Shown in pieces: positions 60,184 through 62,880 of a stretch of DNA of 64,000 nucleotides. Positions within the stretch are counted from its first letter, which is position 1, and every line of letters begins with the position of its first letter. Position numbers and translations under genes: made by a program. The notes beneath the pieces are model-generated. The model had not been told where the DNA came from. It did no database searches and saw only the letters and a list, made by a program, of their open reading frames with translations. Source of the stretch: Actinopolymorpha singaporensis (GTDB taxonomy: Bacteria > Actinomycetota > Actinomycetes > Propionibacteriales > Actinopolymorphaceae); assembly GCF_900104745.1 (NCBI RefSeq), contig NZ_LT629732.1, forward strand, positions 4,451,981-4,515,980, read 5' to 3'.

Positions 60184-61359
60184 ATGCCCGACGTTCACCC
60201 TGGCGCGGCACGCCGCGTGGTTCTGCTGGTTGGCACGACCAAGGGGGCCTTCTTCCTGCACTCCGACGAGCACCGTCAGGACTGGACGCTCACCGGCCCA
60301 CACCTGGGCGGCTGGGAGGTCTTCAGCCTGCTCGGCGACTCCCGACAGGGCCGCCGGCGGATCTTCGCGGGCACCCACCACCAGTCCGGAGGCGCCACGA
60401 TCCAGGTGAGCGACGATCTGGGCGCCTCCTGGCGCCCGGTCGAGGAGGGGCCGCGGTTCACCCCGCTGGGCGACTTCGACTGGGAGAAGGGACGGTGGAT
60501 CCCCAACCAGCCGGGCACGCAGCGGGAGTGGCGGCTCAACCGCTTCTGGCAGCTCGTCCAGGGTCACGACTCCCAGCCGGACACGGTGTTCGCCGGGTCG
60601 GAGGAGGCGGCGTTGTTCGTCAGTCACGACGCCGGCGAGCACTGGAAGGAGCTGTCCGGGCTGACCGCACACCCCACCCGGCCCGACTGGGGACCCGGTG
60701 CGGCCGGCATGGGCCTGCACACGATCCTGGTCCACCCCGACAACCCCGACCGGATGTGGGTGGCGGCATCGGCGGTCGGGGTGTTCCGAACCGACGACGC
60801 CGGCGCGACCTGGCAGACCTGCAACGCGGGGCTGGACCGCCAGCCGGTGGCCGGCAGATCTGCGGAGATCGGCTACTGCGCCCACAAGATCGTGCTCGAC
60901 CCCGACGATCCGGAGGTCCTCTACATGCAGGACCACGGCGGCGTCAACAAGTCGGTCGACGGTGGCGACAGCTGGTTCCCCATCGAAAAGGGCCTCGGCG
61001 CCGAGGGAGACGAGCGGTTCGGCTTCCCGATGGCCGTCGCCCGCAGCGGGGAGCTCTACATCTTCCCGTTGAAGAACAGCGAGCACCGGGTCGCTCGGGA
61101 CGGCCGGATGATGGTCTACCGCTCCGACGACCGAGGCGAGTCCTGGCAACCGGTCCCGGGCGACTTCGCGGCCACCACCAGCTATGTCAACGTCCTGCGT
61201 GACGGCATGGCCGTCGACTCGCTGGAGCCGCACGGCCTCTACTTCGGCACCAGCTCCGGCGACCTCTTCTACTCCCTCGACCGCGGCACCAGCTGGTCCG
61301 CGATCGAAGGGCGCTTCCCCCGCATCACCTGTGTCAAGACCTGGTTGCTGCCGGCATGA
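60184..61359 (+). CDS. Asp-box (BNR) beta-propeller protein, sialidase-like fold
   Basis: A 391-residue protein with six Asp-boxes (S/T-x-D-x-G-x-x-W): SDDLGASW, SHDAGEHW, TDDAGATW, SVDGGDSW, SDDRGESW and SLDRGTSW. A six-bladed propeller is expected. There is no signal peptide, and I see no sialidase FRIP motif or Arg triad, so glycosidase activity is not supported. The N-terminus (VVLLVGTTKGAFF) is shared with the paralogue at 61681. ATG at 60184 follows TGGAGG. The stop overlaps the MoaD-like gene by 4 nt. Confidence 0.88.
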   Translation: MPDVHPGAARRVVLLVGTTKGAFFLHSDEHRQDWTLTGPHLGGWEVFSLLGDSRQGRRRIFAGTHHQSGGATIQVSDDLGASWRPVEEGPRFTPLGDFDWEKGRWIPNQPGTQREWRLNRFWQLVQGHDSQPDTVFAGSEEAALFVSHDAGEHWKELSGLTAHPTRPDWGPGAAGMGLHTILVHPDNPDRMWVAASAVGVFRTDDAGATWQTCNAGLDRQPVAGRSAEIGYCAHKIVLDPDDPEVLYMQDHGGVNKSVDGGDSWFPIEKGLGAEGDERFGFPMAVARSGELYIFPLKNSEHRVARDGRMMVYRSDDRGESWQPVPGDFAATTSYVNVLRDGMAVDSLEPHGLYFGTSSGDLFYSLDRGTSWSAIEGRFPRITCVKTWLLPA

Positions 61360-61679
61360 CGACCACCGAGCAGCCAACCCGGCGCGACGCATCGGCCGGA
61401 GGGGCCGAGATCACGGTGCGAGTGCCGTCCCTTCTGCGCGACTGTACCGGCGACCGGACGCGGTTTCCGCTCACCGCCGGCACGCTCGCGGAGGCGGTCG
61501 AGGCGCTGCTGACCACCTTCCCTCTTCTGCGCCTGCACCTCGTGGACGAGCAACACCGCCTGCGTCCGCACGTACTCATCTACTTCAACGGCGACAACAT
61601 CGCCTTCCTCGACCAGTCGGACGTCCGGCTCGCACCTGGTGACGAGCTGACCGTGCTGCAGAACGTCTCCGGGGGCTGA
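61356..61679 (+). CDS. Ubiquitin-like MoaD/ThiS family protein
   Basis: A 107-residue beta-grasp protein. After a 17-residue tail, ITVRVPSLLRDCTG starts the fold; LRPHVLIYFNGDNI, LAPGDELTVLQNVSGG end it. The C-terminal Gly-Gly is at the exact end, as required for adenylation and thiocarboxylation or conjugation by an E1-like enzyme. No MoeB/ThiF, MoaE or thiazole genes are near, so a role in molybdopterin or thiamine is not indicated. It overlaps the upstream propeller gene (ATGA) and lies 1 nt before the downstream one. Confidence 0.9.
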   Translation: MTTTEQPTRRDASAGGAEITVRVPSLLRDCTGDRTRFPLTAGTLAEAVEALLTTFPLLRLHLVDEQHRLRPHVLIYFNGDNIAFLDQSDVRLAPGDELTVLQNVSGG

Positions 61680-61680
61680 C

Positions 61681-62880
61681 ATGGCAGGCGTGCCGTCCAG
61701 TTCCCCGGTCAACACCGACGCCGCCCCGGTCCCTGACCAGGGCGGCACGGTCGTGCTGCTGGTGGGGACCACCAAGGGTGCCTTCGTGTTCTGCGCCGAC
61801 CGCGGCCGGATGTCGTGGCGGTGCCTGGGGCCGCTCCTGCCCGGGTGGCAAATCTACGACCTGACGATGCTGCCCACCACCGGCCGGCTGTTGGCCGCGA
61901 CCAACCACCAGGCCTACGGACCCACCGTGCGGGTGAGCGACGACTTCGGCGCCGGCTGGCGTCCGGTGCAGGAGAGCCCGCGATTTCCGGACGGAGGTGG
62001 GCGTAGCGTCCGGGAGATTTGGCGGTTCGGCGGCCCGGAGCGCGGCCCGGGCACGCGCTTGTACGCCGGCACCGCAGACGCCGGGCTGTTCACCTCCGGC
62101 GACGAAGGCGAGTCCTGGACGCTCGTGGAGAGCCTGGACGCGCACCCGACGCGGCCCTTCTGGGACGTGCCCGCCACCGCCGGCAGTCTGCACAGCGTGG
62201 TGCTGGACCCCGCCGATCCCCGTCGGATGTGGGTGGGTGTCGCCGGCGCAGGCGTGTTCGGCTCCGTGGACGGCGGCGCCACCTGGGAGCCGCGCAACTA
62301 CGGCCTGCCACCCGCACCGCCCGGACACCCCCATCCGGAGGTGGGCCGGCACGTGCACAAGCTCGCGATCGACCCGACGCCGCCGCACCCGCTCTACCTC
62401 CAGCACCGCGGCGCCGTCTCGACGTCGACCGACGGTGGGCATTCCTGGCGGCCCGTGCCCGGGAGACTCCCTGGCGCGTTCGGCTTCCCGCTCGCCGTCG
62501 ACCGACACGGAGCCCTCTACGTCGCGCCGCTGGCGGGTCCGGCCGAACGCTACATGCCAGACGGCCGGCTCGGGCTGTACCGCTCGACCGATGCCGGGAC
62601 GACCTGGACCGAATGCCGGCAGGGGCTTCCGGCGACACCGCAGTACGTTTCCGTCCTCCGCGACGCGGTCGCGGTCGACGACCTCGACCCGGTGGGGGTC
62701 TACTTCGGCACCACGTCAGGAGAGCTCTACGCCTCCGCCGACGGTGGCGACACCTGGCGGCGGACACCCGGACAGTTCACCCGGGTCACCAGTGTGCGAG
62801 CCCGTGTGCTCGACCCCGGTGCCGCCACGTGGTTCGACGCCGAGGCCCTCACCGACCGGCTCGGCGCCGGCACGCCCTGA
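61681..62880 (+). CDS. Second Asp-box (BNR) beta-propeller protein
   Basis: A 399-residue paralogue of the protein at 60184. Six Asp-boxes: SDDFGAGW, SGDEGESW, SVDGGATW, STDGGHSW, STDAGTTW, SADGGDTW. Shared anchors with the first paralogue are VVLLVGTTKGAF, AHPTRP-W, YVSVLRDA/YVNVLRDG and GVYFGTTSGELY. There is no signal peptide, so it is probably cytoplasmic. Start ATG 61681, 1 nt after the MoaD stop. The three genes clearly form one unit. Confidence 0.88.
   Translation: MAGVPSSSPVNTDAAPVPDQGGTVVLLVGTTKGAFVFCADRGRMSWRCLGPLLPGWQIYDLTMLPTTGRLLAATNHQAYGPTVRVSDDFGAGWRPVQESPRFPDGGGRSVREIWRFGGPERGPGTRLYAGTADAGLFTSGDEGESWTLVESLDAHPTRPFWDVPATAGSLHSVVLDPADPRRMWVGVAGAGVFGSVDGGATWEPRNYGLPPAPPGHPHPEVGRHVHKLAIDPTPPHPLYLQHRGAVSTSTDGGHSWRPVPGRLPGAFGFPLAVDRHGALYVAPLAGPAERYMPDGRLGLYRSTDAGTTWTECRQGLPATPQYVSVLRDAVAVDDLDPVGVYFGTTSGELYASADGGDTWRRTPGQFTRVTSVRARVLDPGAATWFDAEALTDRLGAGTP

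Follow-up and report, generated by a model that had tools for sequence, protein, structure and literature searches.

A ubiquitin-like protein encoded between two Asp-box propellers in Actinopolymorpha singaporensis: a lineage-specific expansion of a widespread propeller-UbL module

We examined an operon within a 64,000-nucleotide (nt) stretch of Actinopolymorpha singaporensis DNA (contig NZ_LT629732.1, positions 4,451,981 to 4,515,980; this whole stretch is hereafter the window), in which a ubiquitin-like protein (UbL) is encoded between two Asp-box propellers, prop1 and prop2. All three open reading frames (ORFs) were confirmed (Table 1), and their coordinates bore out the gene order, the 4-nt overlap of the prop1 stop with the UbL start (ATGA, 61356-61359) and the one-base gap (61680) between the UbL stop and the prop2 ATG that an original prediction had described from the sequence. 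The gene upstream of prop1 matches family 4 glycosidases and ends 147 nt before it, so we take the operon proper to be the three genes. A simple scan of the locus revealed neither a sigma-70-like promoter nor a plus-strand terminator-like site, and inspection of the N-termini of the window proteins by eye (no prediction program) showed no visible signal peptide. The two propellers are 43-46% identical and a pattern count gave six Asp boxes in each, in agreement with their description as six-Asp-box paralogues. The prediction had also held that no E1 enzyme and no cofactor-synthesis gene lie nearby. No PF00899 (E1) or PF14464 (JAB peptidase) gene was found inside the window, unlike the arrangement in bacterial ubiquitin-like conjugation and defence operons, and the five PF00899 matches of the genome all lie elsewhere; the broader statement on cofactor synthesis stands as far as ThiF and JAB are concerned, the families searched being ThiS, ThiF and JAB. 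The locus gave no match with padloc, the propeller gave no match to phage records at E 1e-8, and the PHROGs search returned a single weak match, to prop1.

Table 1. Features of the propeller-UbL-propeller operon, in window coordinates; residue numbers are those of prop1.
Feature	Position	Strand	Description
prop1	60184..61359	+	391-amino-acid Asp-box (BNR) propeller of the 3B7F family; 13 of the 14 site residues kept, with Lys for Arg at 256
UbL	61356..61679	+	107-amino-acid MoaD/ThiS/SAMP1-type beta-grasp protein with terminal Ser-Gly-Gly
Terminal Gly-Gly codons (GGGGGC) of UbL	61671..61676	+	At the expected Shine-Dalgarno place for prop2; putative role in ribosome binding
prop2	61681..62880	+	399-amino-acid paralogous propeller; S196A, C232H, H251R, R256T; site-altered, under constraint

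The window UbL scored 37.1 bits against Pfam ThiS (PF02597), above the gathering cut-off of 22.5, and ends in NVSGG; the C-terminal Gly-Gly is also present in the two congeners that share the operon. Its best NCBIfam match was SAMP1 (NF041918) at 45.3 bits, under the curated equivalog cut-off of 60. The closest solved UbLs by sequence were 4n6e (a ThiS/MoaD protein) and 3dwg (which we take to be CysO), with SAMP1 structures among the weaker matches. Both propellers exceeded the Pfam BNR cut-off of 27 (prop1, 52.1 bits; prop2, 34.5 bits), and their family matches were confined to BNR-type, Vps10, Ycf48-like and F510_1955 models, MoaE not being among them; the scores against the F510_1955 glycosylhydrolase model (NF045728), 71.4 and 69.1 bits, were under its equivalog cut-off of 175. 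GH33 exo-sialidases carry an (F/Y)RIP motif, and a reading of the two translations found no RIP motif in either window propeller. The labels "sialidase" and "glycosyl hydrolase" on these propeller genes are unsupported.

A profile including both window propellers matched the solved structure 3b7f at E 3.5e-106 over positions 1-351 of 354. This protein, Reut_B4987 of Ralstonia eutropha JMP134 ("putative glycosyl hydrolase with BNR repeats"), is a full-length homologue of the propellers. When compared with the model of a related UbL-propeller fusion (described below), it gave Z 49.4 and 1.8 Å over 351 residues at 36% identity, far ahead of the runner-up at Z 27.6, and no other chain scored near it among the matches listed by Foldseek and VIA. 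A published table lists 7 blades and 5 Asp boxes for it and its function is given as "Not known" (PMC2716378), so six Asp boxes need not mean six blades. The window propellers belong with 3B7F, a seven-bladed Asp-box protein.

We examined if the propeller and UbL genes stay together elsewhere by surveying 396 genomes within the phylum. A propeller was detected at E 1e-15 or better in 92 of these, this genome included, and 92 loci were taken from the 91 other genomes (one genome gave two); a locus was scored as paired if a same-strand UbL lay within 400 nt. The predicted co-occurrence was upheld, 73 of the 92 loci being paired, with the UbL downstream in 43, upstream in 17 and fused in one frame with the propeller in 13. 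The 19 unpaired loci comprised 11 from one family (f4), five from another (f46: L105, L146, L149, L159, L160) and three uninformative misses, of which L157 and L170 were truncated by the end of the contig and L171 was a different protein that matched only in part. UbL relatives are generally common (228 of the 396 genomes), so the signal is the adjacency and not mere presence. Four of the f46 propellers without a UbL (L146, L149, L159, L160; all of genus g96) are nested in a clade of fused and UbL-first loci, which suggests secondary loss.

A first contig scan with the window UbL alone as query found no relative. A second scan was done with the propeller profile, and the best 80 of 579 relatives were analyzed with the same pairing script; this set is Streptomyces-rich, and the list of phyla obtained from it is not a census. 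Forty-two were paired and 38 unpaired, although one of the latter (L185) has a UbL with Gly-Gly some 520 nt downstream; eight of the propellers duplicated ones already in the collection. Among the matches listed, paired loci occurred in Alphaproteobacteria (e.g., Rhizobium sp., Roseomonas, Hyphomicrobium), Acidobacteriota (three, all fused), one Chloroflexota, one Eremiobacterota and two archaeal metagenome-assembled genomes (MAGs; L203 and L250, from Thermoplasmatota and Euryarchaeota). At the locus itself, no UbL adjoined the propeller in any examined Streptomyces locus, in three Rhodobacterales records or in the Nitrososphaerales, Pedosphaera and Chthoniobacter MAGs; the same was found for three other Chloroflexota MAGs, where one record ends just past the propeller. 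All 22 plasmid records with a propeller were at least 169 kb, and of ten opened, six were unpaired and four paired (Mitsuaria, Pseudomonas aeruginosa, Cupriavidus metallidurans and Burkholderia stagnalis). Existing annotations, where present, read "MoaD/ThiS family protein" adjoining "exo-alpha-sialidase" or "hypothetical protein".

The UbL and propeller distances correlated over 113 pairs (Mantel r 0.84; top of 1000 permutations, 0.07), in a permutation that leaves shared ancestry in. No third conserved gene family was found beside the pair: the largest neighbour cluster of the first set touched 10 of 94 loci, that of the second set (15 loci) included no paired locus, and the larger clusters of the second set represented Streptomyces or Streptosporangiaceae synteny. 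Neighbour genes were called as the longest ORFs in GC-rich DNA, so that a small conserved gene could be missed. The pair is thus kept far beyond the genus, in both gene orders, with fusions and with correlated divergence, and we hold with high confidence that UbL and propeller work together, as had been predicted.

The Gly-Gly tail, whose conservation had been singled out beforehand as a point to be checked, was present in 109 of 116 distinct paired UbLs. Seventy-four ended exactly at Gly-Gly, 17 had 1-5 extra residues and one (L156) had 25; the rest were a frame-split fusion (L182), 16 fusions with an internal Gly-Gly, and seven without Gly-Gly, namely L095, cut at a contig end, and UbLs from six Nonomuraea species (L183, L190, L195, L200, L212, L223), which stop just ahead of the Gly-Gly position. 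Where the UbL precedes the propeller, its Gly-Gly codons overlap a stretch resembling a Shine-Dalgarno sequence (GGAGG in 14 of 24 distinct genes), so conservation there is not independent evidence. An exact C-terminal Gly-Gly was also found in 63 of 76 distinct propeller-then-UbL genes, where there is usually no propeller downstream.

In the fusions (13 within the phylum plus the three of Acidobacteriota) the UbL forms the N-terminal part, and the internal Gly-Gly was kept in 16 of 16 distinct proteins. That it is a leftover ribosome site was considered and ruled out by the varied codon use (GGAGG in 2 of 16 only); the constraint therefore acts on the protein. When the fusion label was placed on the propeller tree, parsimony gave 5 changes, at least 2 of which were forced by well supported branches. 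At five other loci (L138, L162, L165, L166, L169) UbL and propeller are in-frame and are parted by a stop plus one codon before the ATG; judged by their reading frames, these are possible intermediates towards fusions. AlphaFold2 models were made of two natural fusions, the alignment for the first placing the last residues of most UbL-only rows wrongly, within the propeller, and containing some misaligned rows, and that for the second being built without UbL-only rows. Both domains were confidently modelled (mean predicted local distance difference test score, pLDDT, 92.9 and 93.6; predicted template-modelling score 0.78 and 0.83), and the pLDDT fell below 50 at residues 83-100 in one model (Gly-Gly at 85-86) and at 81-83 in the other (Ile-Ser and the first Gly). 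In our reading, the modelled fusions consist of two folded domains joined by a flexible hinge.

Fourteen site residues (prop1 numbering: K20, W122, W169, H179, S196, C232, H234, Q249, H251, R256, F279, F281, P295 and R339) were conserved at 95-100% in 113 paired propellers, the polar residues H179, S196, C232, H234, Q249, H251, R256 and R339 included; L255, partial rows and duplicates were left out of these counts and the window rows were set apart. By our reading of the model's strand assignment, which is an argument of strand register and not a coordinate measurement, most of these residues would lie at innermost-strand starts or B-C turns on one face of the ring. An alignment with the Cupriavidus metallidurans propeller, read by eye, indicated that 3B7F keeps the H, H, QxH, R and R site positions and differs in that the position of the propeller family's Cys is not Cys.

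The original prediction had described two propellers beside one UbL. This is not the general form: the usual module is one propeller and one UbL, and the prop-UbL-prop layout was found only in three species of the window's genus. A prop2-like propeller was detected at E 1e-20 in 88 of 147 genomes of the order (this genome counted), and of 16 order loci opened, two (G402 and G412, of the same genus) had prop-UbL-prop, G420 of that genus had a lone prop2-like gene, and the remaining loci had one propeller each, accompanied by a Gly-Gly UbL in eight and without UbL in five. In a propeller tree made by a quick method, prop1 and prop2 join as long branches, so that their origin by duplication within the locus is likely from these sequences, not secure. 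In the window locus, a widespread two-part propeller-UbL module has undergone a lineage-specific expansion. None of the genus's four prop2 sequences has kept C232, and the other prop2 site changes vary; the G412 prop2 retains S196, H251 and R256 but carries Gln at 234. Besides their site changes, prop1 and prop2 both depart at several other well-conserved columns, mostly Gly, Pro or hydrophobic. The ratios of nonsynonymous to synonymous substitution rates (dN/dS) were 0.10-0.21 for prop1, 0.24-0.35 for prop2 and 0.35-0.57 for UbL, the last resting on a short alignment; the G412 UbL, whose frame opens late, may be truncated or contain a sequencing error. In the window the competent partner is probably prop1, with prop2 as a site-altered paralogue in a binding or regulatory role.

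The 6.4 Mb genome, a single contig, has five PF02597 matches, the window UbL among them; the others lie between a JAB protease and a PALP enzyme (CysO-like, L015), beside another PALP enzyme, beside ThiG, and near a sigma factor. In the second of these (L016, 5737-7634) the ThiS-family frame adjoins a PALP-family enzyme distinct from the CysO-like locus and may be another carrier-enzyme pair. A second propeller-UbL pair, of the canonical one propeller plus one UbL form, lies at C1:842466 (L014, 6467-7866); its UbL, with the tail GAMAGG, escaped the Pfam ThiS search (E 0.001) and was recovered with a purpose-built profile. Two of the five PF00899 matches were under the cut-off, and the best was a 640-amino-acid ThiF-rhodanese frame at C1:6210735. 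The sole JAB match of the genome adjoins the CysO-like carrier. In 80 of the 91 surveyed propeller genomes that were tested for these enzymes, a ThiF-type E1 (E 1e-30) was present in 76 and JAB in 77. JAB was tried as a marker of fusion (13 of 13 fused genomes match) and rejected as uninformative, given its overall frequency; the three JAB-less genomes, G008 and G085 (100% complete, exact Gly-Gly ends) and G245 (fragmentary, one residue past Gly-Gly), are too few to use.

The pairing, its breadth, the fusions, the Gly-Gly constraint and the conserved propeller residues are computational observations; for what they mean, we tentatively favor, at somewhat short of even chances, a UbL activated in trans that serves the propeller enzyme. 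A housekeeping ThiF-rhodanese enzyme would activate the UbL tail, and the activated tail (thiocarboxylate or acyl-adenylate) would be offered either to the propeller itself or to a substrate bound in the propeller's site. The propeller would play the acceptor-enzyme part, as ThiG, MoaE or BexX do in known sulfur-carrier systems. In the fused forms the Gly-Gly, located in the poorly ordered hinge, would need exposure by a protease, for which a JAMM-type enzyme would be the obvious candidate. One MoeZ-type enzyme serves several carriers, and a JAMM enzyme trims a carrier C-terminus to expose Gly-Gly, so there is precedent for a carrier activated in trans. Several observations weigh against activation of the tail. 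The 14 site residues were equally kept (93-100%) in 55 orphan propellers, mostly of Streptomyces, so the core propeller activity needs no neighbouring UbL. The Nonomuraea UbLs without Gly-Gly are still constrained beside their propellers (pairwise dN/dS 0.04-0.29), and by their sequences must act there without tail chemistry. The fusion models show no tail docked in the propeller, and a fused tail cannot be activated unless cut. The presence of E1 and JAB is not discriminating, nearly every tested genome having both, and one fused genome (G138, 87% complete) had no ThiF at threshold. The orphan propellers and the Nonomuraea UbLs oppose a strict tail-chemistry model, and speak for a propeller with its own activity whose UbL, as donor or regulator, was replaced or reduced in some lineages.

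We put an activated-tail donor (sulfur carrier) first, a structural subunit second and a modifier third. As a non-covalent subunit, the UbL would support or regulate the propeller without any activation of its Gly-Gly; the Nonomuraea UbLs, which retain the gene order under constraint, the fusions, which tie UbL to propeller, and the finding that no E1 recurs beside the pair fit this possibility, the foremost of the alternatives though an unlikely one, but a binding role alone is hard to reconcile with Gly-Gly in 109 of 116 distinct paired UbLs and, with varied codons, in all 16 fusions, and the models, judged by pLDDT and template-modelling score, give a loose hinge and not a clear complex. 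We are more doubtful of an analogue of ubiquitin fusions, in which a UbL beside or N-terminal to the propeller would be released by a protease after the hinge Gly-Gly, its activated tail making it a dedicated sulfur carrier or modifier. Slightly lower still we place conjugation of the UbL to lysines in SAMP-like fashion, with the propeller as substrate adaptor, ligase-like factor or main target. SAMP1 as the best NCBIfam match, the SAMP1 structures among the weaker matches and the pairs in two archaeal MAGs would be in keeping with such a modifier, but the SAMP1 equivalog cut-off was not reached, no third gene recurs beside the pair (E2 families were not searched for) and padloc gave no match. 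Coincidental adjacency, or a housekeeping carrier parked beside an unrelated propeller, is very improbable: the unpaired loci (the 19 of 92, concentrated in two families, and the 38 of the best 80) are what it would predict, but the survey already contradicts it, through pairing across phyla, both orders, repeated fusion and correlated divergence.

A full-text search of open-licence PMC found no paper on the propeller-UbL pair. The words propeller, sialidase and BNR were absent, by term search, from the available text of an archaeal Ubl survey (PMC2948915) and from that of the main article of Iyer et al. 2006 (PMC1779556), and the available text of PMC1949818 has a single mention of a beta-propeller, among the abbreviations of a figure. 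Sulfur-transfer proteins are considered the ancestors of ubiquitin-like modifiers (PMC5654768), so each new UbL partner reveals a further use of the Gly-Gly tail. In the present case a recurrent partner, whose crystal structure was released in 2007, is linked with a UbL in several phyla, and the natural fusions with their internal Gly-Gly allow a direct test of whether the protein is cut after Gly-Gly and whether the tail is activated. If the analogy with ubiquitin fusions were true, there would be a new two-component UbL pathway across bacteria and archaea, hidden under the labels "exo-alpha-sialidase" and "MoaD/ThiS family protein".

Among known systems, the Ubl neighbourhoods of Iyer et al. 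concern the same UbL superfamily and use the same neighbourhood reasoning, with E1 and JAB genes present. To SAMP1 the window UbL is alike in sequence, at 45.3 bits, and differs in missing the cut-off. From the MoaD of molybdopterin synthase it differs in that the window operon has no MoaE partner. The carriers CysO, MoaD and ThiS share with it the beta-grasp assignment by Pfam and the C-terminal Gly-Gly, 4n6e and 3dwg being the solved relatives; unlike carrier systems, the window unit is without E1 or JAB, and JAB-carrier-PALP and carrier-ThiG loci occur separately in this genome. Whereas CysO, MoaD and ThiS partner CysM, MoaE or ThiG, the partner of the window UbL is a propeller.

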